From NCBI GenBank assembly GCA_026392465.1, contig JAPLCA010000018.1:1-64000 (forward strand): a stretch of 64,000 nt of DNA, read 5' to 3'. A model generated the notes under the pieces. It saw only the letters and a list, made by a program, of their open reading frames with translations, was not told the DNA's origin and made no database searches. How positions within the stretch are numbered: the stretch's first letter is position 1; every line of letters starts with the position of its first letter. Of the stretch, positions 3,847-46,970 are shown piece by piece. The stretch comes from Propionibacteriales bacterium. GTDB taxonomy: Bacteria > Actinomycetota > Actinomycetes > Propionibacteriales > Nocardioidaceae. A program made the translations under genes and the position numbers.

Positions 3847-5511
3847 GTGACTCCCGAGCAGCTCAGCGACGTGATCGTGTCCGCCCTCCAGCGGCTCGTC
3901 GACGAGGGACGGCTCAGCCTCCCCGACGGCGTGCCGACCCAGGTGCGCGTGGAGCGACCCAAGGTCAAGGAGCACGGCGACTACGCCACGAACATCGCGC
4001 TGCAGCTGGCCAAGAAGGCGGGCCTGAACCCGCGCGACCTCGCCACGGACCTCGCCGGGGTGCTCGCCGAGCACGACGGTGTGAGCGCCGCCGAGGTCGC
4101 CGGCCCGGGCTTCCTCAACCTGCGCGTGGCCGCCGACGCGCAGGGCCAGGTGGCCGCACACGTGCTCCAGGCCGGAGCCGACTACGGCCACAGCGAGCTC
4201 TACGCCGGCCAGAAGGTCAACCTCGAGTTCGTCAGCGCCAACCCCACGGGCCCCATCCATATCGGCGGCGTGCGCTGGGCCGCCGTCGGCGACTCGCTCG
4301 GCCGACTGCTGACGTTCGCCGGTGCCGACGTCACCCGCGAGTACTACTTCAACGACCACGGCGCCCAGATCGACCGCTTCGCCCGGTCGCTGCTCGCGTC
4401 GGCGCGGGGCCAGGAGGCGCCCGAGGACGGGTACGGCGGCCAGTACATCCACGAGATCGCGGCCGACGTCGTGGCGAAGCACCCCGACGTCGCCTCGCTG
4501 CCCGACCCGGAGGCGACCGAGGTGCTGCGCGCCGAGGGCGTGGCACTGATGTTCGCGGAGATCAAGGCGTCCCTGCACGACTTCGGCGTCGACTTCGACG
4601 TCTACTTCCACGAGAACGACCTGCACGAGTCCGGCGCGGTCGAGCGGGCCATCGCGCGGCTCGACGAGCTCGGCAAGATGTACGAGAAGGACGGCGCCCG
4701 CTGGCTGCGCACCTCCGACTACGGCGACGACAAGGACCGGGTCGTCGTGAAGTCCGACGGCCAGGCCGCCTACATCTCCGGCGACCTCGCGTACTACCTC
4801 GACAAGCGCGAGCGGGGCTTTGACCGCTGCCTCATCATGCTGGGCGCCGACCACCACGGGTACGTGTCGCGGATGATGGCCATGTGCGCCGCGTTCGGTG
4901 ACGAGCCCGGCGTGAACCTCGAGCTGCTGATCGGCCAGATGGTCAACCTGCTGCGTGACGGCGAGCCCCTACGGATGAGCAAGCGCAACGGGACCGTCAT
5001 CTCCCTCGAGGACCTCGTGGGCGCCATCGGCGTCGACGCGGCCCGGTACGCCCTGTCCCGCTACTCGACGGACTCGCCGATCGACCTCGACCTCGACCTC
5101 TGGGCCAGCACGACGAACGACAACCCCGTCTACTACGTGCAGTACGCACACGCGCGGCTCTCGAGCATCCTGCGCAACGCCGCCGACCTCGGCATCGACC
5201 ACGGCCTCGACCGCTTCGACCCGGGCCTGCTCGAGCACGAGAAGGAGGGCGACCTGCTGCGTGCCCTGGCGAGCTTCCCCGAGGTGGCGTCGCGTGCGGC
5301 GGAGCTGCGGGAGCCGCACCGGGTGGCCCGCTACCTGGAGCGCACCGCGGCCGCCTTCCACGCGTTCTACGCCGTCTGCCGCGTGCTGCCCCAGGGGGAC
5401 GAGGACGTCACCGACGTCCACCGCGCGCGGCTGGTGCTGGTCGACGCGACCCGTCAGGTCGTCGCCAACGGGCTCGGCCTGCTCGGCGTCTCGGCCCCGG
5501 AGCGCATGTGA
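3847..5511 (+). CDS. argS: arginyl-tRNA synthetase
   Basis: A 554-residue class I aminoacyl-tRNA synthetase that charges tRNA-Arg in the cytoplasm. The N-terminal additional domain covers about residues 1-105. The HIGH-type motif is in [12 protein letters not shown], followed by the Rossmann fold. A KMSKS-like RMSKRNG precedes the DALR anticodon-binding domain at the C terminus. Length is normal for the family. The GTG start follows a TAGGCT box by six bases with no leader. The last four bases overlap the lysA start (ATGA), coupling the two genes. Confidence 0.97.
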
Positions 5512-6920
5512 TGAGGGCCCACGAGGCGGGCGCGCTGCACGGCCAGGCCGGAGACAGGGGTCCCGCGTGGCTGCGTCGCCCCGACGACGTCGACGCGCTC
5601 GTGCCGCACCTGTGGGCACGCAACGTCTCCAAGGTCGACGGGGTCGTGACCGTCGCCGGTGAGTCGGTCACGGACCTGGCCGAGGAGTTCGGCACGCCGC
5701 TGTACGTGCTCGACGAGGACGACTTCCGCAGCCGGGCGCGGGCCTTCAGCGACGCCTTCGAGGGGTGCGAGGTGTACTACGCCGGCAAGTCGTTCCTCTG
5801 CGTCGCCACGGCGCGCTGGGTCGAGGAGGAGGGGCTGAGCCTCGACGTGTGCACGGGTGGCGAGCTCGCCGTGGCGCTGCGTGCCGGCTTCCCGCCCGAG
5901 CGGCTCGCGCTGCACGGCAACAACAAGTCCGTGGCCGAGCTGCGGCGTGCGCTCGAGGCGGGCGTCGGGCGGATCATCGTCGACTCGCTGGAGGAGGTCG
6001 ACCGGCTCGTCGCCCTCACGGCGGAGACCGGCCGTGAGGCAGCCGTCATGGTCCGCGTGACCGCGGGCGTCGAGGCGCACACCCACGAGTACATCTCCAC
6101 CTCCCACGAGGACCAGAAGTTCGGGTTCTCCATCGCCGACGGCGCCGCGTTCGAGGCCGTCAGCCGCATCGTCTCCGCCCACCGGCCCGGGGGAGGCGGC
6201 CTGCGGTTCCTCGGGCTGCACTCGCACATCGGCTCGCAGATCTTCGTGGCCGACGGCTTCGAGGTGGCCGCGCGGCGCGTGCTGCGCCTGCACGCGCGGA
6301 TCATCGAGGAGCTCGGCGTCGTCCCGCCGGAGATGGACCTCGGCGGCGGCTTCGGCATCGCGTACACGACGCAGGACGACCCCCGCTCGCCCGCCGAGCT
6401 CGCCGACAGCCTGCTCGGCATCGTGCGCGCGGAGTGCCGGGCACTCGACGTCGACGTGCCGCACCTGTCGATCGAGCCGGGGCGCGCGATCGTCGGGCCC
6501 ACGACGTTCACGCTCTACGAGGTCGGCACGGTCAAGTCCGTCGGTCTCGACGGGGGCGCCTCGCGCCGCTACGTCGCCGTCGACGGCGGCATGAGCGACA
6601 ACGTGCGGCCCGCGCTCTACAGCGCCGACTACTCGTGCACCCTCGCCTCGCGGCGGTCCGAGGAGCCGGCGGTGCTGAGCCGCGTGGTCGGCAAGCACTG
6701 CGAGAGCGGCGACATCGTCGTGAAGGACGAGTACCTCCCGGGCGACGTCGCCGCCGGCGACCTGCTCGCCGTCCCCGGTACCGGGGCGTACTGCCGCTCG
6801 CTCGCGAGCACCTACAACCACGTGCCGCGTGCGGCCGTGGTGGCGGTGCGCGACGGCGAGGCGCGGCTGATCCTGCGCCGCGAGACGGAGGACGACCTCT
6901 TCACGCTCGACGTCGGCTGA
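5508..6920 (+). CDS. lysA: diaminopimelate decarboxylase
   Basis: A 470-residue PLP enzyme of the alanine racemase-like fold III group. It converts meso-diaminopimelate to L-lysine and CO2, the last step of lysine synthesis. The PLP lysine is K94 in YYAGKSF. Further landmarks are [11 protein letters not shown], the phosphate-binding [16 protein letters not shown] and the C-terminal active-site CESGD. The first 40 residues are an extension common in actinobacterial LysA. It overlaps argS by 4 nt and precedes the aspartate-family genes hom-thrC-thrB by 3.5 kb. It converges on the azlCD genes with a 17-bp gap. Confidence 0.96.
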
Positions 6921-38982: not shown

Positions 38983-40110
38983 TCAGCCGGCCGCCGGCCT
39001 GCTGGGCTCGCCCTCGGTGTCGTCGTCCGCGTCGGCGTCGGACGCCGCGGCAGGTGAAGGCGCGGCGACGGCGTCGCCGGCGAAGGAGGCGACGATGTCG
39101 CGCAGCTGACCCATCTGGGCCAGGATGCCCTCGCGGCGACGCTGGAGCTCGTCCACCTCGGCACGCAGGGCACGCGTCTCGCGCTCGACGTCGGTCGTGG
39201 CGGCCGCGCGCTGGTGCTCGGCGTCCGCCCTCGCGTTGGCGACGAGGGAGGCAGCCTCCTTGCGGGCGTTCTCGATGATGCCCGCCGCCTCGGCGGCAGC
39301 CGACTCCTTCGCCGCGTTCGCCTTGGCCATGAGGCCACGAGCGCGCTCGTCGGCAGCAGCGGCGCGGGTCTCGGCGTCGGTGACCAGCTTGGCGGTCTGC
39401 TCGGTGGCGGCGGCATGGTTCTCGGCTGCCTCGCGGGCGAGCCGCTCCTTCTCCACGGCCAGGACGCGACGAGCCTCCGTGACCTCGCGGTCGGCGGCGG
39501 CGCGGGCCTGCTCGACCTCGCGCGTCGCGCCGAGACGCATGTTCTGGGCGTCCTGCTCGGCGGCGAGCCGGATCTGTGCGGCCTCGCGGTCGGCCTGGGC
39601 ACGCACGTCGTCCGCGTGGGCCGCGGCCTCGGCCCGACCGGCCTCCGCCTCGGTGAGGACCTCGCGACGCTTCTCCTCGATCTCGACGACCGCCCGGCCG
39701 CGGGTCTCCTCGGCCTCCTTCGCGGCGACCGTCCGGACGAGGGTCGCCTCCTCCTCGGCGATCTTCAGTGTCTCCTCGGCCTCGCGGCGGGCGCGGCTGC
39801 GGATCTCCTCGGCCTCCTGCTCGGCCAGCTGCAGCAGCTGGGCCGCGTGACCGCCGAGGCCGGCGTAGGAGGGCCGCTCGATGGACTCGACCCGCTCGCG
39901 CAGCTGCTCGACGATGTCGTGGAGCTCGTCGTTCTCCTCCTGCAGCGCCTGCACGGCGGCGGCCGCCTTCTGGAGCTCCGCGGTCTGCGTGCGGGCCCAG
40001 GCGTCGACGGCGTCGCTGTCGTAGCCGCCGCGCCGGGCGAGGGGGAACGCGGCCTCCGCGGACTTGCGGGCCGCGTCGAAGATGGACAACCCGGACTGCT
40101 CTTCGGCCAT
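38983..40110 (-). CDS. DivIVA/Scy-like coiled-coil protein
   Basis: A 375-residue protein. Residues about 12-65 (AAFPLARRGGYDSDAVDAWART and the coiled coil after it) resemble the DivIVA membrane-targeting head. Residues 65-340 are nearly continuous coiled coil rich in Ala, Glu and Arg with 51-residue-like periodicity, and the tail is acidic. Such proteins organise polar growth or cytoskeleton. In Streptomyces (from memory) scy/filP lie beside the epimerase gene, matching the position here near ccr and the epimerase. The ATG at 40110 is chosen, as homology starts there. Confidence 0.7.
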   Translation of the reverse strand: MAEEQSGLSIFDAARKSAEAAFPLARRGGYDSDAVDAWARTQTAELQKAAAAVQALQEENDELHDIVEQLRERVESIERPSYAGLGGHAAQLLQLAEQEAEEIRSRARREAEETLKIAEEEATLVRTVAAKEAEETRGRAVVEIEEKRREVLTEAEAGRAEAAAHADDVRAQADREAAQIRLAAEQDAQNMRLGATREVEQARAAADREVTEARRVLAVEKERLAREAAENHAAATEQTAKLVTDAETRAAAADERARGLMAKANAAKESAAAEAAGIIENARKEAASLVANARADAEHQRAAATTDVERETRALRAEVDELQRRREGILAQMGQLRDIVASFAGDAVAAPSPAAASDADADDDTEGEPSRPAAG

Positions 40111-40302
40111 GCCGCTGTGCTCCCTGTCGGTTCGGGGGGTGTGCTGGAGGTCGTGCTGGGACGGCGGTGTCGTGGGCGCCGCGGGCGCCGCTGCGCCGGC
40201 TGCGGTGCGCGACGTCGTCCACCATACCCAGGCGGACCGACGACGCAGCGGCGACGCGGGCGCGGGCCGGACGTCCGTGCGGGGGCGGCGGCGCCCCGGA
40301 CG

Positions 40303-40341
40303 CACCGAGGTCCCGGACGCGGCGCGTCCGGGACCTCGGTG
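40303..40341 (-). terminator. ccr hairpin terminator
   Basis: CACCGAGGTCCCGGACGC and GCGTCCGGGACCTCGGTG make a perfect 18-bp stem with a 3-nt loop, 20 bases past the ccr stop on the minus strand. Confidence 0.88.
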
Positions 40342-40360
40342 GGGTGCGTGCGAACGCGGA

Positions 40361-41701
40361 TCAGATGCCGCGGAACCGGTTGATCGCGTCGAGGTGCTGG
40401 GCGCGGAACTCCTCGTTGCGCACGCCCAGGCCCTCCTCGGGTGCCAGCGCGAGCACGCCGACCTTGCCCTGGTGGAGGTTGTGGTGCACGTCGAGGGACG
40501 CCTGGCCCACGTCCTCGAGCTTGTACGTCTTCGACACGGTCGGGTGGATCTTGCCCTGCGCGATGAGGCGGTTGGCCTCGAACGCCTCGCGGTAGTTGGC
40601 GAAGTGGCTCGACACGATCCGCTTGAGGTTCATCCAGAGGTAACGGTTGTCGTACTCGTGCATGAAGCCCGTGGTCGACGCGCAGGTGGTGATCGTGCCG
40701 CCCTTGCGGGTGACGTAGACCGAGGCGCCGAAGGTCTCGCGGCCGGGGTGCTCGAAGACGATGTCGATGTCCTCGCCGCCGGTCAGCTCACGGATCTTCT
40801 TGCCCAGGCGCTGCCACTCCTTGGGGTTCTGCCGGGTGCCGTCCTCGTTCCAGAACTTCCAGTTCTCCTCGGAACGGTTGATGACGTGCTCGGCGCCCAT
40901 GCTGCGCACGATCTTCGCCTTCTCCTCGTTCGAGACGACGCAGATCGGGTTGGCGCCGCCGTTGAGCGCGTACTGCGTGGCGAAGCCGCCGAGTCCGCCG
41001 GAGGCGCCCCAGATCAGGACGTTGTCGCCCTGCTTCATGTTGCCGCCGTTCTTGGACACGAGCTGGCGGTAGGCCGTCGCGTTGACGAGGCCGGGGGACG
41101 CGGCCTCCTCCCACGTGAGGTGGTCGGGCTTGGGGAGGAGCTGGTTGGACTTCACGAGGGCGATGTGGGCGAGACCGCCGAAGTTGGTCTCGAAGCCCCA
41201 GATGCGCTGCTGGGGGTCCATCATCGTGTCGTCGTGGCCGGCCGGGTCCTCGAGCTCGACCGACAGGCAGTGCGCCACGACCTCGGCGCCCGGCTTCCAC
41301 TGCGTGACGCCGGGACCCGTGCGCAGCACGACGCCGGCGAGGTCCGAGCCGACCACGTGGTACGGCAGGTCGTGGCGCTTGGTGAGCGGCGAGAGCTTGC
41401 CGTAGCGCTCGAGGAAGCCGAAGGTCGAGACCGGCTCGAAGATCGACGTCCAGACGGTGTTGTAGTTGATGGCGCTGGCCATGACGGCGACGAGCGCCTC
41501 GCCCGGGCCCAGCTCGGGGAGCGCCACGTCCTCGACGTGGATCGACTTGCGGGGGTCCTTGTCGCGGCTGGCGACGCCCTCGAACATGTCCACCTCGTCC
41601 TTGTGGACGGTGGCGGCGGTGTAGTGGTCGGGGATCTCCAGGTGGGCGAAGTCCTCGTCCGCCGTGTCTCCGGCGAGGATCGCGTCGAGGATGTGCTGCA
41701 C
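40361..41701 (-). CDS. ccr: crotonyl-CoA carboxylase/reductase
   Basis: A 446-residue zinc-free MDR-family enzyme. It reductively carboxylates crotonyl-CoA with NADPH and CO2 to (2S)-ethylmalonyl-CoA, the hallmark step of the ethylmalonyl-CoA pathway. CO2-site residues of the family are present: Asn in AINYNTVW, Phe-Glu in WGFETNFGG and His in RIVSSHFANY. NADPH binding is at LIWGASGGLGGFA. The start is the GTG at 41701 with a GGAGG site. It is followed by a strong terminator and preceded by the epimerase gene, 168 bp away. Confidence 0.96.
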   Translation of the reverse strand: MQHILDAILAGDTADEDFAHLEIPDHYTAATVHKDEVDMFEGVASRDKDPRKSIHVEDVALPELGPGEALVAVMASAINYNTVWTSIFEPVSTFGFLERYGKLSPLTKRHDLPYHVVGSDLAGVVLRTGPGVTQWKPGAEVVAHCLSVELEDPAGHDDTMMDPQQRIWGFETNFGGLAHIALVKSNQLLPKPDHLTWEEAASPGLVNATAYRQLVSKNGGNMKQGDNVLIWGASGGLGGFATQYALNGGANPICVVSNEEKAKIVRSMGAEHVINRSEENWKFWNEDGTRQNPKEWQRLGKKIRELTGGEDIDIVFEHPGRETFGASVYVTRKGGTITTCASTTGFMHEYDNRYLWMNLKRIVSSHFANYREAFEANRLIAQGKIHPTVSKTYKLEDVGQASLDVHHNLHQGKVGVLALAPEEGLGVRNEEFRAQHLDAINRFRGI

Positions 41702-41753
41702 GGGGCCTCCAGTGGTGGGTGTTCCGGCGCTCGGTCCGGCACGGGTTTCGGCG

Positions 41754-41759
41754 ATGTTA
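41754..41759 (-). promoter_or_regulatory. -10 element of ccr
   Basis: On the minus strand TAACAT with a predicted leader of about 45 nt before the GTG at 41701. Confidence 0.5.
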
Positions 41760-41771
41760 CCGAGACGTAGC
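41756..41771. promoter_or_regulatory. operator-like palindrome at the ccr promoter
   Basis: GTTACCGAGACGTAGC matches GTTAC-N6-GTAAC at 9 of 10 half-site positions and overlaps the ccr -10 element, as in the mutase promoter. Confidence 0.55.
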
Positions 41772-41869
41772 CTTCTGCGTCCCGTCTCGCGCATGTGGAT
41801 CAGGTCACGCCAGGTCCAGGGCGGGGTCCGGGGCCCGGGCGGGGGCGGCGCGGGCCGCCGTGGCGGACG

Positions 41870-42319
41870 TCAGTGGCCGGTGGCTGCCGGCTGGACCAGC
41901 TCGACAAGCACGCCGCCGGCGTCCTTCGGGTGCACGAAGTTGACGCGGCTGTCGGACGTGCCGCGCTTCGGCTGGTCGTACAGCAGCCGGACGCCCCGGT
42001 CGCGCAGGACGGCCGACACCGCGTCGATGTCCGTCACGCGGTAGGCGAGCTGCTGGACGCCCTGGCCGTTGCGGTCGAGGAACTTCGCGATGGTCGAGCT
42101 GTCGTCCAGCGGCGCCAGCAGCTGGATGCACGAGCCCGAGTCGCCGACCGCCAGCATCGCCTCGCGGACGCCCTGCTCCTCGTTCACCTCCTCGTGCACC
42201 GACTCCAGCCCGAAGACCGAGGAGTAGAAGGCGAGCGCCTCGTCGAGGTCGGGGACGGCGATGCCGACGTGGTCGATCGCGACGAGCAGGTGGTCGGGGA
42301 CGACGGAGGAGGAGGTCAT
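41870..42319 (-). CDS. mce: ethylmalonyl-CoA/methylmalonyl-CoA epimerase
   Basis: A 149-residue vicinal-oxygen-chelate enzyme interconverting (R)- and (S)-alkylmalonyl-CoA. Metal ligands are the His of IDHVGIAVPDL, the Gln of CIQLLAPL, a His near NFVHPKDAGG and the Glu of LVELVQ. It feeds the mutase at 30255 with the right epimer. The ATG at 42319 follows a TACGCT box by seven bases. In related actinobacteria (from memory) it usually lies beside thiolase and meaB; here the 42.4-47 kb cassette separates them. Confidence 0.95.
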   Translation of the reverse strand: MTSSSVVPDHLLVAIDHVGIAVPDLDEALAFYSSVFGLESVHEEVNEEQGVREAMLAVGDSGSCIQLLAPLDDSSTIAKFLDRNGQGVQQLAYRVTDIDAVSAVLRDRGVRLLYDQPKRGTSDSRVNFVHPKDAGGVLVELVQPAATGH

Positions 42320-42326
42320 GGGAGGC

Positions 42327-42332
42327 AGCGTA
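42327..42332 (-). promoter_or_regulatory. -10 element, leaderless epimerase mRNA
   Basis: On the minus strand TACGCT, then 7 nt, then ATG at 42319. Confidence 0.6.
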
Positions 42333-42369
42333 GAGGAGCGTGCAGCCGGGCGCGGGACGGTCGTCCGAG

Positions 42370-42387
42370 ATCGAACGTAGTGTCGAT
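42370..42387. promoter_or_regulatory. inverted repeat, candidate LysR-type operator
   Basis: ATCGAACGTAGTGTCGAT is ATCGA-N8-TCGAT, 24-41 bases before the first HTH gene. Position and symmetry fit autoregulation by the adjacent LysR-type HTH proteins; this is inference. Confidence 0.4.
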
Positions 42388-42410
42388 AGTCCACGGAGGG
42401 CGGAGGTCGG

Positions 42411-42812
42411 ATGCACGTCGAGATGCGCATGCTGCGGGCGCTGGTGATGGTCGAGGCGCAGGGGTCCATCGGAGGTGCGGCGCAGGCGCTGGCGTTCTCA
42501 CCGGCCGCCGTCAGTGCCCATCTGCGGGCCCTGGAGAAGGAGTGCGGCACGCGCCTGGTCGAGCGCACGGGCTCCGGCACGCGACTCACGGCCGCAGGGC
42601 GGCGGGCCGTGCCGATCGCCCGCCTCATCCTGGTCGCCGCGCAGGAGCTCCAGCGGCTGGAGGCGTCGGTGCAGTCGGGGCCGGCCGGGCCGCGACCGCA
42701 GGGGCGACGGCCACGCGGCGACGTCCCGGGTGCAGCACGTCCCGACGTCGACGGGAGCGGCAGGTCCGCGGCCTCTACCAAGAAGCGAGGGACTTCTCAA
42801 GAGCAGTCCTAG
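42411..42812 (+). CDS. stand-alone LysR-type HTH protein, copy 1
   Basis: A 133-residue protein. Residues 1-85 are a LysR-type winged HTH plus linker helix (RMLRALVMVEAQGSIGGAAQ, SPAAVSAHLRALEKECG, GRRAVPIARLIL). The 300-residue scaffold of normal LysR proteins is missing: no effector domain follows, only a polar Arg/Pro/Ser-rich tail. About 58 percent identical over 85 residues to copy 2 at 42972, so a local duplication. The ATG at 42411 has a GGAGG site. It is probably a regulator of the peptide cassette. Confidence 0.75.
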   Translation: MHVEMRMLRALVMVEAQGSIGGAAQALAFSPAAVSAHLRALEKECGTRLVERTGSGTRLTAAGRRAVPIARLILVAAQELQRLEASVQSGPAGPRPQGRRPRGDVPGAARPDVDGSGRSAASTKKRGTSQEQS

Positions 42813-42971
42813 AGATCGTGAATCTCGTTGTCCTGCGAGGGTCCGCTGCTCTTGGCTCGGTGCTGCGCGGTCGAGCAGGCCGCCCGACCGTCGGGTCCCG
42901 CCCTGCTCCGTGCCGGCGCGCACGGATCGGGCCGCGACGGCCGCCGCGGAGCCAGGGGAGGGGGAGTCGCC

Positions 42972-43286
42972 GTGCATCTCGACCTGCGGATGCTGCGCGC
43001 CTTCGTCGCGGTCGAGCAGATCGGCTCCTTCACCGACGCGGCCCGGGTGCTGCGCTTCTCCACGCCGGCGGTGAGTGCTCAGGTGCAGGCCCTCGAGAAG
43101 GGCTGCGGTGTCCGACTCGTGCGGCGTGAGGGGGCGCGCATCGTGCTGACCGACGCCGGTCGTCGTGCGGCGCCGGTGGCCCGGCTCATGCTCGCCGCGG
43201 CTCGCGAGCTGGAGCGGCTCGGCGACGACGTAGGCGACCGGTCGTCCTGCGTCAAGACCTTCCCCACCAATGCCGAAGACGGGTGA
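42972..43286 (+). CDS. stand-alone LysR-type HTH protein, copy 2
   Basis: A 104-residue protein: HTH and linker helix (LDLRMLRAFVAVEQIGSFTD, TPAVSAQVQALEKGCGVRLV, GRRAAPVARLMLAAARELER) with a 20-residue tail and no effector domain. The GTG at 42972 is used because it matches the start of copy 1 (MHVEMRM/MHLDLRM) and has a GGGGAG site. It lies 69 bp before the peptide gene. Confidence 0.75.
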   Translation: MHLDLRMLRAFVAVEQIGSFTDAARVLRFSTPAVSAQVQALEKGCGVRLVRREGARIVLTDAGRRAAPVARLMLAAARELERLGDDVGDRSSCVKTFPTNAEDG

Positions 43287-43355
43287 CGTCGTCGCGCGGC
43301 ACGCCGTCATGCTCACGCTGGCGGCACCGAAGCCGCCCTCGTGAAAGGAGACATC

Positions 43356-43577
43356 ATGTCCACCCTCGTGCTCGAGGACTACCGCAGTCCCGTCATCGAC
43401 GTCGTGCCCTCGGCGGGCCATGAAGAGAACCAGGCCTGGTTCGTCGTCCCGATCGGCATCGTCGCGTACTTCGGCGGTGCCGCGCTCTGGTGCAAGTACG
43501 TCTGCAAGGGGAACGGTGGCGTCAAGTCGTGCAAGGCGCACTACGTCGTGAACATCAAGGCGGTCTGCCGCAAGTGA
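43356..43577 (+). CDS. putative RiPP/bacteriocin precursor peptide
   Basis: A 73-residue peptide. Residues 1-27 are acidic and leader-like (LVLEDYRSPVIDVVPSAG). Residues 28-45 are one hydrophobic helix with glycines (WFVVPIGIVAYFGGAALW). The C-terminal 28 residues are cationic with four cysteines (46, 50, 59, 71) in CKYVC, KSCK and AVCRK. There is no double-Gly cleavage site. The strong AAAGGAG site before ATG 43356 suggests high expression. The next gene encodes a PqqD-like domain fused to an M50 protease, followed by an ABC exporter. Identity as a secreted modified or disulfide peptide is inferred. Confidence 0.6.
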   Translation: MSTLVLEDYRSPVIDVVPSAGHEENQAWFVVPIGIVAYFGGAALWCKYVCKGNGGVKSCKAHYVVNIKAVCRK

Positions 43578-43686
43578 TGCGGTCCGTCACCGAGGGCACC
43601 CGGGACATCCGTGTCGCGGGTGCGGGGCGGCTCCTTGGGGCCGTCCACACTGCCCGCACCATCCACCCCGCAGGGAGGAGCGGCCG

Positions 43687-44583
43687 ATGAGGCTCGACGT
43701 GCAGGACGTGGTCGGTCTGCCGTCCGAGGTCCGCTGGGACGAGAGGGCCCAGGACCTGGTCGACACCACACTGGGGGCCCGGCACGCGGTCAACGACTCC
43801 GCGGCTGAGGTGGTCGGGGCGCTGGCGGAGGGTGGGTGGACGGTCGAGGAGGTGTCGGTGCGGCTCGCCGACCGCTACGGCATCCCCACCGACCGGGCGC
43901 GTGAGGACGTCCTCGACCTGCTCCGCACTCTCGACGACCAGGCGTTGCTGGCCGTGCGGCGTCCGCGCCGCTTGGTGTGGTCGCGGTCGGGGGTCGCCGG
44001 TACTGCAGCGGCATTCGTCACGGAGGGCGACCTCTTCCGCGCCTACCGCCTGCCCGCCACCGTCCGCGGGGTCGCGCGAGCCACGACACGCATCCTGCTG
44101 TGGCCGACCGTCGTGCTCCTGGTCGGCGCCGGCGGTCTCGTGCTGGCTCTGCGGGGCGTACGACCCGACCTCGGCACTGACGTCCTGGTCGAGTCGTCCG
44201 TCCTCGTCGCGGCACTCGTGGTCTGCCTCTGGGCGACCATGGCGTTCCACGAGATCGGGCACCTCCTGGCGCTCGGCTGGCGTCGCGATCGAGCGGTGGT
44301 CGTCGTGCGGGGGTGGCGGATGGCGCTGCTGCGCCCGCGCGACCTCGAGCCCGAGGGTCGCGCCCGGTCCGCGGCCGTGGCTGTGGCCGGTCCGATCGCG
44401 GGCCTCGCGGGCGGGCTCGCCGTCGCTCCGCTCGGCCTGCTCCCGGTGCTGGGCCTCGAGTTCGCGGTCGTCGCCTGCGCGGTCGGGCTGAGCCACCTGG
44501 TGCACCTCGGGCCATGGGCGGCCGACGGCGCGATGCTCGCGCGGGCGGTGCGCAGGACGGAGGTCCGACGTGCTGCGACTTGA
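43687..44583 (+). CDS. PqqD-like (RRE) domain fused to M50-type membrane protease
   Basis: A 298-residue fusion. Residues about 20-98 form a PqqD-like winged helix, the fold of RiPP recognition elements that bind precursor leaders (ARHAVNDSAAEVVGALAEGGWTVEEV). Then come membrane helices at about 136-156 and 165-187, the zinc motif HEIGH (188-192), and two to three more helices ending in PWAADGAML, where D280 fits the third ligand. Site-2-type proteases of this shape (YydH-like) process peptides in epipeptide systems. It overlaps the ABC ATPase gene by 14 bp. No radical-SAM or cyclase gene is present. Confidence 0.78.
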   Translation: MRLDVQDVVGLPSEVRWDERAQDLVDTTLGARHAVNDSAAEVVGALAEGGWTVEEVSVRLADRYGIPTDRAREDVLDLLRTLDDQALLAVRRPRRLVWSRSGVAGTAAAFVTEGDLFRAYRLPATVRGVARATTRILLWPTVVLLVGAGGLVLALRGVRPDLGTDVLVESSVLVAALVVCLWATMAFHEIGHLLALGWRRDRAVVVVRGWRMALLRPRDLEPEGRARSAAVAVAGPIAGLAGGLAVAPLGLLPVLGLEFAVVACAVGLSHLVHLGPWAADGAMLARAVRRTEVRRAAT

Positions 44584-45277
44584 GGGCGTGCGGACCCGAC
44601 GTGGGTCCTTCGAGGTCGGCCCGGTGGACTGCGAGGTGGCCGACGGTGAGCTGCTGGCCCTCGTGGGCGTCAACGGCTCGGGCAAGACCACGGTCCTCTC
44701 GGCGCTCCTCGGTCAGGTGGAGGTCACCGGCGGAGCGGTCGTGCTCGACGACGACGTCGTCGACCTCGGTGCGCGCCGCCATCTCGCCCGGGTCGGCTAC
44801 GTGCCCGACGAGGAGGCGACCGTCTACCCCGAGCTGACGGCCGACGAGTACTACGCCCTGCTGGCAAGAGTGCGCGACACCGACCGGGCCGCGCAGACGC
44901 TTCGCCACGCGGCCGACCTGGCGTACCGCCTCGGACACGCGCCCGGCAGCACGCCCTTCGCCGCGTTCAGCCACGGGATGCGCCGCAAGACACAGCTCGT
45001 CGCCGCGCTGATGCACCGTCCCCGTCTGCTCCTCGTGGACGAGCTGAGCAATGGCCTCGATCCATTGGCGGCAGGAACCGCCGACCGGATGCTCGACGAC
45101 GCCCGGGCCGACGGAGCGGCGGTCGTCGTCAGCACTCACGACCTCGCCTGGGTCGAGCGCCGGGCCGACCGGGTGGTCCTGCTGCACGGCGGTCGCGTCG
45201 TGGCCACCGGCACTGTCGACGAGGTGCGAGGTCGGCATCGGGCGCTGGCGTCGGCGTACCAGGAGCACGTCGGGTGA
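44570..45277 (+). CDS. ABC transporter ATP-binding protein
   Basis: A 235-residue ABC ATPase. Walker A is VGVNGSGKTTVLS, the signature region AFSHGMRRKTQLVAALM, Walker B LLLVDELSNGLDP, and the switch His is in VVVSTHDLAWVE. Single-ATPase type, as in CcmA-like and bacteriocin immunity/export systems. The GTG lies inside the protease gene end. The stop overlaps the next membrane gene by 4 bp. It presumably energises the membrane subunits that follow. Confidence 0.88.
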   Translation: MLRLEGVRTRRGSFEVGPVDCEVADGELLALVGVNGSGKTTVLSALLGQVEVTGGAVVLDDDVVDLGARRHLARVGYVPDEEATVYPELTADEYYALLARVRDTDRAAQTLRHAADLAYRLGHAPGSTPFAAFSHGMRRKTQLVAALMHRPRLLLVDELSNGLDPLAAGTADRMLDDARADGAAVVVSTHDLAWVERRADRVVLLHGGRVVATGTVDEVRGRHRALASAYQEHVG

Positions 45278-46668
45278 CGGGGGTCCTGCTCGCGCGCGTG
45301 CACGGGCGCCACGTCCTCCTGCGCGGCGCATCGCCGAGGATCGCGCTGGCCCTGGCCGGGCTGGTGGGCGCGGTCGCGGCGTCCGGGGCGGTCTTCGCGC
45401 GCTCCCGGTGGCGTGACGAGGTGTCCACGGGTGCCGTGCTCGTGCCGCCGTCGCTCGTGCTCGCGGTCGGCCTGGCGATCGTGGTGCTTGACCAGACCGC
45501 TCCCCGCGGGGTCCACGGCCCGCTGCTGACCCTGCCGGTCGGTCGTCGTGCGGCCGCCCGTCTGCAGCGGCTGCCGGGTCTGCTCGCGCTCGGGCTGCTG
45601 GTGCTCGTCTGCACTCCCGCGCTCCTGCTCCTCCTCAGCGAGGTCGGCACGGGCTACCTCGAGGCGTCGCTGATGGTCGCGGTCTGCGTCGTCGCAGGAG
45701 TCGCGACGGGCCTCCTGTGCTCTGTGGTCGCCAGCGGCGCGACTGCCGCGGCCGCGCGCCTCGGCGTGCCCGCGGTCGTGGCGGCTCCGCTCGCGGCGCT
45801 CGTGTGGACCGGCTGGACCCTGGCGACCGTCGGGGCCGTCGGCCACGGCCTGCTGCATCCGCTCGCCCCGGCGTTGGCCGTGTGGCCGCGGGTGCTCGAC
45901 GTGATGACGGGCGGCCGTGCAGCCGTCGATCTCGGGCTCGACCTGCTGCTCTGGACGGTGCTGGCTGGTCTGCTGCTCGGGGCGGTGCGACCGGATCCCG
46001 GTCTGCGGGGCGTCTGGGGGCGGAGACGGTTCCGGCGTGTCCCGCTGCTGGTGCTGCAGGTCACCCGGGTCCTGCGTGCCAGGCCCACGCAGGTGCATCT
46101 GCTCATGGGGACGAGCCTGCTGGCCGTGCTGGGCGTGGCGCCTCAGTGGCGTCCCGAGGTCGGTCCGTCCACCGGCGGTGTCGTGGTGGCGGCTCTCGTG
46201 TGCGCGGTGGCGGGGGTGGCGTTGCGCGGACTCGACGGTGTGCTCCCGCTCGACGTGCGCTGGCTCGTCACGTCGTGGCGGCATGTCGGGCTCGCGCTGG
46301 GCGGTGTTCTCGTCTGCACGGCCCCGCTGATCCTCGTGGGACTGGCGCTGTCCTCGCCCTCCGGTGTCGGGATGGTGCTCGTGCCGCTGGTCCTCTGTGT
46401 CGCAGCGACGGGGGTCGGTCTCGCAGTCGGTGCCGTGCTGGGCGCGCCCGCCGGCGACCCCGTGGCTGAGCTGGGCGCCGTCGGCGCGCTGGCCACGGTC
46501 GCCCTCGTGCTCGGTGGCGGCGCGGACCCCGCTGCGCTCGTCACCCTGCTGTCCGCCGTGACCGTGGCGGCCGTCCTCGTCGGCGTGCGAGCCGAAAACG
46601 GCCTGCTCGCCCGCACTCGTCGGGGGGACGTCGACCCCCCTCCGACGTCAGAAGGAGAGACCGGATGA
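45274..46668 (+). CDS. polytopic membrane protein, presumed ABC permease
   Basis: A 464-residue protein with about 12 hydrophobic segments arranged as two sets of six around a cytoplasmic basic loop (GVWGRRRFRRVP). No family is recognised, but position directly after an ABC ATPase with 4-bp overlaps on both sides argues for the permease of the same transporter. Several Cys and Val-rich helices; no extracellular domain. Role in export of, or immunity to, the 73-residue peptide is inferred. Confidence 0.65.
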   Translation: MTGVLLARVHGRHVLLRGASPRIALALAGLVGAVAASGAVFARSRWRDEVSTGAVLVPPSLVLAVGLAIVVLDQTAPRGVHGPLLTLPVGRRAAARLQRLPGLLALGLLVLVCTPALLLLLSEVGTGYLEASLMVAVCVVAGVATGLLCSVVASGATAAAARLGVPAVVAAPLAALVWTGWTLATVGAVGHGLLHPLAPALAVWPRVLDVMTGGRAAVDLGLDLLLWTVLAGLLLGAVRPDPGLRGVWGRRRFRRVPLLVLQVTRVLRARPTQVHLLMGTSLLAVLGVAPQWRPEVGPSTGGVVVAALVCAVAGVALRGLDGVLPLDVRWLVTSWRHVGLALGGVLVCTAPLILVGLALSSPSGVGMVLVPLVLCVAATGVGLAVGAVLGAPAGDPVAELGAVGALATVALVLGGGADPAALVTLLSAVTVAAVLVGVRAENGLLARTRRGDVDPPPTSEGETG

Positions 46669-46970
46669 GCGTGCTCGGACCACGACCCTGGCGACCGGTG
46701 AGACGCGGTGTCGCGCTGGGGATGCTGCTGGCCTGCCTCCTGCTCGCGGTACTCGCGGTGCAGGCCACCCGCGCCCTCGGCGACCGCGACGGCCGTGTCG
46801 CGGCAGGCGTCGGGAACGTGGAGATGGTCGTCCTGACACGCAGCGCTTCCGACGGGGCGAGCAGCGCCTCGCTCGGCGTCCGTCCGGGAGCGGCGTCGCT
46901 GCTGCTCCTGCCAGGGGCTGGCGCGGCAGTGGGTGCACTGCTGGCACGGCGCTTCTCAGGCGCTCCGTGA
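46665..46970 (+). CDS. small membrane protein ending the cassette
   Basis: A 101-residue protein with two hydrophobic segments (ALGMLLACLLLAVLAVQ and SLLLLPGAGAAVGALLA) separated by a 40-residue extracytoplasmic loop. No family is recognised. It is coupled to the preceding permease (4-bp overlap). It may be an immunity or accessory subunit; nothing in its sequence decides this. Confidence 0.6.
   Translation: MSVLGPRPWRPVRRGVALGMLLACLLLAVLAVQATRALGDRDGRVAAGVGNVEMVVLTRSASDGASSASLGVRPGAASLLLLPGAGAAVGALLARRFSGAP

Follow-up and report, generated by a model that had tools for sequence, protein, structure and literature searches.

Organization of a five-gene cassette headed by a four-Cys peptide gene

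The DNA studied here, hereafter the window, is a stretch of 64,000 nt from a Propionibacteriales bacterium (Nocardioidaceae; GCA_026392465.1, contig JAPLCA010000018.1, positions 1-64,000, forward strand). It contains a five-gene cassette (Table 1), in which a gene for a small four-Cys peptide is followed by genes for an RRE-M50 fusion protein, an ABC transporter ATPase, a presumed ABC permease and a small membrane protein. The peptide stop codon and the RRE-M50 start codon are separated by 109 nt (43578-43686), exactly as the initial annotation had it, while among the RRE-M50, ATPase, 464-aa and 101-aa genes each start overlaps the gene before. No sigma-70-type promoter or terminator was found in 43200-43800, and the RNA of the 109-nt gap folded no better than its shuffles (z -0.43). 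Pfam and NCBIfam searches recognised no tailoring enzyme among the five cassette proteins, and PADLOC and PHROGs searches returned weak matches or none.

Table 1. Features of the cassette, in window coordinates
Feature	Positions	Strand	Basis or remark
Five-gene cassette	43287..46965	+	Absent from genus-mates G007, G027 and G019; blastn and alignment
Ribosome-binding site AAAGGAG	43344..43350	+	5 nt upstream of ATG; sequence
Precursor peptide gene, 73 aa and stop	43356..43577	+	
Leader motif YRSPVI, residues 9-14	43380..43397	+	Fits [Y/W]xxPx[L/V/I/F/A] as given in the cited part of PMC13381572
Hydrophobic segment, residues 28-46, GG at 40-41	43437..43493	+	
Cationic four-Cys tail, residues 46-73	43491..43574	+	
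RRE-M50 fusion, 298 aa, putative RRE-guided intramembrane metalloprotease	43687..44583	+	PF05402, HEIGH, GP, DG
PqqD/RRE domain, residues 33-88 of RRE-M50	43783..43950	+	
HEIGH, putative zinc site and catalytic Glu, residues 188-192 of RRE-M50	44248..44262	+	
DG, putative third zinc ligand, residues 280-281 of RRE-M50	44524..44529	+	Sequence
ABC transporter ATPase, 235 aa	44570..45277	+	PF00005, E 3e-22
Polytopic membrane protein, 464 aa, presumed ABC permease	45274..46668	+	Eleven hydrophobic segments; assigned by position
Two-TM membrane protein, 101 aa	46665..46970	+	Possible immunity protein, role inferred

The 73-residue open reading frame is a coding gene

Codon statistics and comparative genomics had been named beforehand as checks that could overturn the peptide frame. 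With a codon model built from six genes elsewhere in the window, the frame scored 0.634 bits per codon, none of its five alternative frames exceeded -0.545, and its GC3 was 0.93. This was the strongest codon signal among the five cassette genes, the remaining four scoring 0.36 to -0.21 bits per codon in their own frames. The initial annotation was also borne out in the 73 residues followed by a stop, in the Cys at residues 46, 50, 59 and 71, in the hydrophobic stretch that these Cys adjoin (its best 19 residues, 28-46, have a mean Kyte-Doolittle value of 1.74) and in the AAAGGAG ribosome site. It had counted one His and six Lys/Arg in the tail; the His is there, while seven Lys/Arg were counted in residues 47-73. 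No acidic residue occurs in this tail, which ends in ...CRK, and residues 1-27 contain five acidic residues and one basic residue. The predicted structure of the peptide was poor (mean pLDDT 54.0).

A chance open reading frame would fit with the failure to find homologues of the peptide and with the finding that at least four Cys in the last 35 residues occur in 4 of the 140 window ORFs of 50-110 aa. However, the codon signal lies far above that of the other frames and also above that of the other cassette genes, the ribosome site is good and the peptide is the first gene of the extra block described below, leaving a chance origin with a next to negligible probability. We conclude that this ORF is a real gene for a precursor peptide, which the RRE-bearing protease most likely matures as proposed below and which is probably bacteriocin-like.

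The cassette is one block absent from genus-mates

Two genus-mates (G007 and G027) share about 93% DNA identity with the window around the cassette. Blastn matches to both covered 40000-43227 and resumed at 46966, and an alignment extended the left-hand match as far as 43286, which takes in the stop codon of the HTH gene upstream. The sequence separating the two BLAST blocks measures about 95 bp in G007 and G027 and 3738 bp in the window, and the 3.7-kb extra block corresponds exactly to the genes of the peptide, RRE-M50, ABC ATPase, permease and 101-aa membrane protein. We then compared 23 corresponding loci, obtained from 23 of the 46 further genus genomes in which a thiolase matched. None of the 23 carried the cassette genes and three carried the HTH pair, while the order of the flanking genes, which we take to be ccr-mce-thl, was found in 22, the last contig being too short for ccr. 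As the HTH pair also occurs in relatives that lack the cassette, it falls outside the cassette. The simplest reading is that the cassette was gained in this genome, with loss in the other genus-mates as the less simple alternative. No repeats marking both cassette ends were found among those listed (20 of 29 direct and 25 of 35 inverted repeats).

The HTH pair, located between mce and thl, encodes tandem paralogous LysR-type proteins of 133 and about 104 aa (42411-42812 and 42972-43286) with little beyond the HTH domain (PF00126). The corresponding slot of G019, downstream of the HTH pair (L145, about 5340-6300 on the reverse complement), holds unrelated cargo, namely a 250-aa secreted-looking protein, for which no Pfam family scored over the cut-off, and a small two-TM membrane protein. 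The slot may be a variable site.

The RRE-M50 protein combines a PqqD-type domain with a site-2 protease layout

PF05402 matched residues 33-88 of RRE-M50 with an E value of 7.9e-9 and 36.2 bits (cut-off 23.4), and the best NCBIfam match was a lasso PqqD chaperone model (E 1.3e-7, below its cut-off). The protein has four hydrophobic segments, with HEIGH at 188, GP at 235-236 and DG at 280-281. HExxH, GP and DG together with hydrophobic segments form the layout of M50/site-2 proteases, and the DG presumably provides the third zinc ligand, as in M50 proteases. No M50 model of Pfam or NCBIfam matched RRE-M50 at E 0.1, indicating that the protease is divergent.

A single-sequence AlphaFold2 model of RRE-M50 had a mean pLDDT of 54.9, and its confident part comprised only some of the RRE (residue blocks within 41-80 at 75-90). 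The first Foldseek match was the lasso B1 protein with leader (6jx3_B; probability 0.99 but E 1.6) and the second was PqqD (3g2b). With a second aligner, 3g2b reached Z 7.0 and 6jx3_B reached 6.1, each aligned over 51 residues, in a range where Z under 8 is common and where an unrelated translocon chain reached 7.4, above both. The predicted RRE is carried by the sequence match, with which the weak fold evidence agrees. No site-2 protease appeared in the fold searches, which are uninformative here given the low confidence of the model in the protease region. The phmmer matches of the RRE to polyubiquitin were sums of weak repeats, and this relationship was rejected.

The ABC pair and the 101-aa protein

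The transporter match of the ATPase was ABC_tran (PF00005), its other matches being generic P-loop families. The 464-aa protein had no Pfam or NCBIfam match, and no family of either database scored over the cut-off for the 101-aa protein. Rather than exporting the peptide, the ABC pair could act as an immunity pump, like EpeAB in the epipeptide locus (PMC12871923, cited part). At E 1e-20, ABC relatives were present in 28 plasmid records, five of which were inspected: two lie in daptide-annotated clusters, two elsewhere and one in a record without annotation. At 37% identity, this plasmid context is weak evidence. On a Streptomyces plasmid (NZ_CP108358.1; L105 and L107), daptide-annotated genes share a cluster with lanKC and a YcaO-like gene, which may be a hybrid RiPP pathway.

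Searches for homologues and for other RRE-M50 fusions

In its own genome the peptide matched itself and one further site at E 0.28. Across 49 genus genomes, matches at E up to 1 were found in 24, including self (best other E 0.026), and none of six such sites that were translated resembled the peptide. The peptide had no match in plasmids and phages at E 1 or in PDB sequences at E 10, and its 8 pattern matches in viral contigs contained no relative. RRE-M50 matched 2 of the 49 genus genomes at E 0.001, namely self and a generic site-2 protease in G023 (1.9e-5), which lies in a 3.4-kb locus without such a cassette. In the overlapping family, order and phylum genome sets it matched 1 of 341 (E 1e-8), 1 of 391 (1e-6) and 1 of 366 (1e-5), always self, and plasmids gave no match. 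Pattern scans with RRE-M50 returned 57 and 596 matches in genome contigs and 5 and 373 in viral contigs, none of them a relative; these contig scans rely on short peptide patterns and so speak against close relatives only. The permease matched self alone in its own genome, 1 of 316 class genomes (self) and no plasmid. With no homologue of the peptide, RRE-M50 or permease, neither the leader motif nor the Cys are backed by conservation.

RRE-M50 fusions were also sought through PF05402. A PqqD match was present in 142 of 393 class genomes, and 33 genomes, most of them with weak matches, were searched a second time. HExxH in hydrophobic ORFs was found in none of 50 PqqD loci (L024-L073), nor with a stricter filter, and in four ORFs of 30 further loci (L074-L103); PqqD lay in the same ORF in L074, L075 and L095 and not in L094. 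RRE-M50 aligned with the L074 and L075 proteins and with daptide MpaP only around HExxH, without significance. The wider loci around L074 and L075 (L111 and L112) encode RRE-M50 fusions of about 394-418 aa, adjoining short ORFs whose leaders are acidic and whose C-termini are Cys/Ser-rich; we take these short ORFs to be thiopeptide-like. The L095 ORF (943-2700) encodes 586 aa with a PqqD match and a HELTH motif, and its N-terminus is presumably FHA-like.

A leader motif and a proposed route of maturation

In the cited parts of PMC13381572, [Y/W]xxPx[L/V/I/F/A] is bound by discrete lasso RREs, and in the linear polyphosphorylated peptide (LPP) system the Tyr and Pro of the motif matter for RRE binding and cleavage by the leader peptidase needs the RRE. 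The same pattern arose in 2.4% of shuffled leaders, and 2 of the 140 small ORFs of the window contain it among their first 30 residues, making YRSPVI alone weak evidence for a possible RRE binding. One group of lasso leaders carries the motif at -17 to -12 (PMC10368454, cited part), a spacing that would place the cut after residue 25, at the start of the hydrophobic stretch. In RRE-M50, 9 basic and 5 acidic residues lie between hydrophobic segments two and three, and 5 basic and 2 acidic residues at the C-terminus; these charges are consistent with an active-site face in the cytosol, to which an RRE in the same compartment could pass the leader.

Given the RRE encoded in the next gene, the YRSPVI leader, the HExxH layout and the single block, we propose, as the reading we judge reasonably probable, that the 73-aa protein is the precursor of a secreted bacteriocin-like peptide. 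The N-terminal RRE of the adjacent M50 protein would recognise the acidic leader by its YRSPVI motif, and the fused intramembrane metalloprotease would cut either near the leader/hydrophobic border (25/26, if the lasso spacing applies) or within the Gly-containing hydrophobic segment, releasing a cationic peptide of roughly 28-48 residues. Its four Cys would probably form two disulfides outside the cell; with two disulfides, the calculated average mass would be 5200.2 for residues 26-73, 5072.1 for 27-73, 3494.2 for 42-73 and 3052.7 for 46-73. In this reading the ABC pair and the 101-aa membrane protein may export the peptide, protect the producer, or both. Daptide MpaP (PMC10036551) and the EpeX-EpeP-EpeAB locus (PMC12871923), as described in the cited parts, are precedents for this logic. 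Two points stand against the proposal: were the precursor an ordinary membrane protein, a cationic tail on the outside would break the positive-inside rule, and the want of a recognised tailoring enzyme in the cassette is unusual for RRE systems.

Cleavage by the M50 enzyme had already been suggested in the initial annotation. The fused RRE, the RRE-type leader motif and the shared 3.7-kb block favour it, while the argument from a missing Gly-Gly site falls: GG is present at 40-41, within the hydrophobic segment, and at 54-55. The statement that there is no double-Gly site is thus literally wrong and holds in substance, as no C39 peptidase domain, as in the ABC transporters of double-glycine class II bacteriocins, was found in the ATPase or the permease with Pfam and NCBIfam. 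The leader might instead be cut at GG 40-41, or a host protease might remove it; the product would then comprise 32 residues (42-73), and the M50 enzyme would have some other task. Y, I and V at -4, -7 and -12 of this GG agree with what we take to be the double-Gly consensus. We give this a low probability, since the ABC proteins carry no C39 domain and the adjacent protease carries a fused RRE; moreover, every position around the GG is hydrophobic, so that the fit says little.

One hydrophobic segment with charged ends, encoded beside membrane-protein genes, would also suit a small protein that stays uncleaved in the membrane, as a subunit or regulator of either the protease or the ABC pair. 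This is unlikely in view of the acidic, leader-like N-terminus, which carries an RRE motif and is encoded next to a protease with an RRE, and of the ribosome site and 109-nt gap that set the gene apart, as in precursor genes, from the four overlapping genes that follow.

Membrane proteases also mature signals, and nothing in the sequence indicates killing. The same maturation could yield a signal or developmental peptide with the ABC pair as its exporter. Daptides, which come from an RRE-S2P pathway, lysed red cells but did not inhibit growth when tested on agar (PMC10036551, cited part). We regard a signal as unlikely: no receptor or regulator lies within the cassette, the upstream LysR-HTH pair is also present in relatives without it, and the cationic Cys-rich tail and patchy presence better fit a weapon.

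Within the bacteriocin-like reading, the cassette may represent a minimal class in which a protease with its own lasso-type RRE is the sole processing enzyme of an otherwise unmodified, disulfide-stabilised four-Cys antibacterial peptide, a possibility that we put forward tentatively and hold to be short of even. RREs usually work with tailoring enzymes or with soluble leader peptidases. If such a class existed, RiPP leader recognition would here act in intramembrane proteolysis and nothing else, forming a bridge from RiPPs to class II-like bacteriocins, and an RRE fused to an intramembrane protease would suffice for the maturation of a disulfide-type peptide. In that case, the 3.7-kb cassette would offer a simple one-peptide, one-enzyme system for direct tests of RRE-guided site-2 proteolysis, a little-studied step of daptide and epipeptide maturation.

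Comparison with known systems

Daptides resemble the cassette in having an RRE-fused protease, a short precursor with a hydrophobic core and ABC genes; their RRE is fused N-terminally to the site-2 protease MpaP, which is held to remove the leader (PMC10036551, cited part). Unlike in daptides, no MpaB/C/D/M-type enzyme was recognised in the cassette, the leader lacks ELExMEAP, and the precursor has four Cys and ends in Lys, not Thr. Pfam and NCBIfam detected no daptide oxidative decarboxylase, aminotransferase or methyltransferase family among the five proteins, and the MpaP model NF041824 did not match RRE-M50 at E 0.1 (control Streptomyces MpaP, 1.5e-144).

The epipeptide locus epeXEPAB (yydFGHIJ) encodes a precursor, a membrane peptidase and an ABC pair giving immunity, and shares with the cassette the order precursor, M50 peptidase, ABC ATPase, ABC permease and the logic of processing and immunity, there in unfused form (PMC12871923, cited part). 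In contrast, the RRE here is fused to the protease and the precursor has four Cys. No epipeptide radical SAM epimerase was found among the five proteins (Pfam, NCBIfam), and the protease model NF058609 did not match RRE-M50 at E 0.1.

Lasso peptides and LPPs share the PqqD-type RRE and the [Y/W]xxPx[L/V/I/F/A] leader motif, as well as presentation of the precursor to a leader peptidase by the RRE, which is predicted here (PMC13381572, cited part). The protease of the cassette, however, is of M50 type and not of the B2 cysteine or SpI serine type, and no cyclase or kinase was recognised in the cassette. The lasso B2 leader peptidase family PF13471 had no match at E 0.01 in the whole genome, and no Asn-synthetase-like macrolactam cyclase was found among the five proteins (Pfam, NCBIfam).

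Actifensin, a disulfide-bonded bacteriocin compared here by description, also has a leader, a Cys-containing core and ABC genes nearby, but it has six Cys versus four, and the cited part of PMC6989792 describes a subtilisin-like protease and no RRE-M50. M50 enzymes are further named in epipeptides and pearlins (review PMC10885120), and M50 genes are mentioned in circular-bacteriocin clusters (PMC8534725, PMC8659200), in the parts cited. The term M50 is absent from two RRE-mining papers (PMC7470986, PMC12710340), and no RRE-M50 four-Cys system appeared among the best-matching titles and abstracts of the open-licence PMC literature. Taken together, on the features compared the cassette belongs neither to the daptides nor to the epipeptides or lasso peptides. 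The logic of an RRE-fused site-2 protease is already known from daptides, while the combination of a lasso-type leader motif, an RRE-M50 fusion and a four-Cys core seems to be new.
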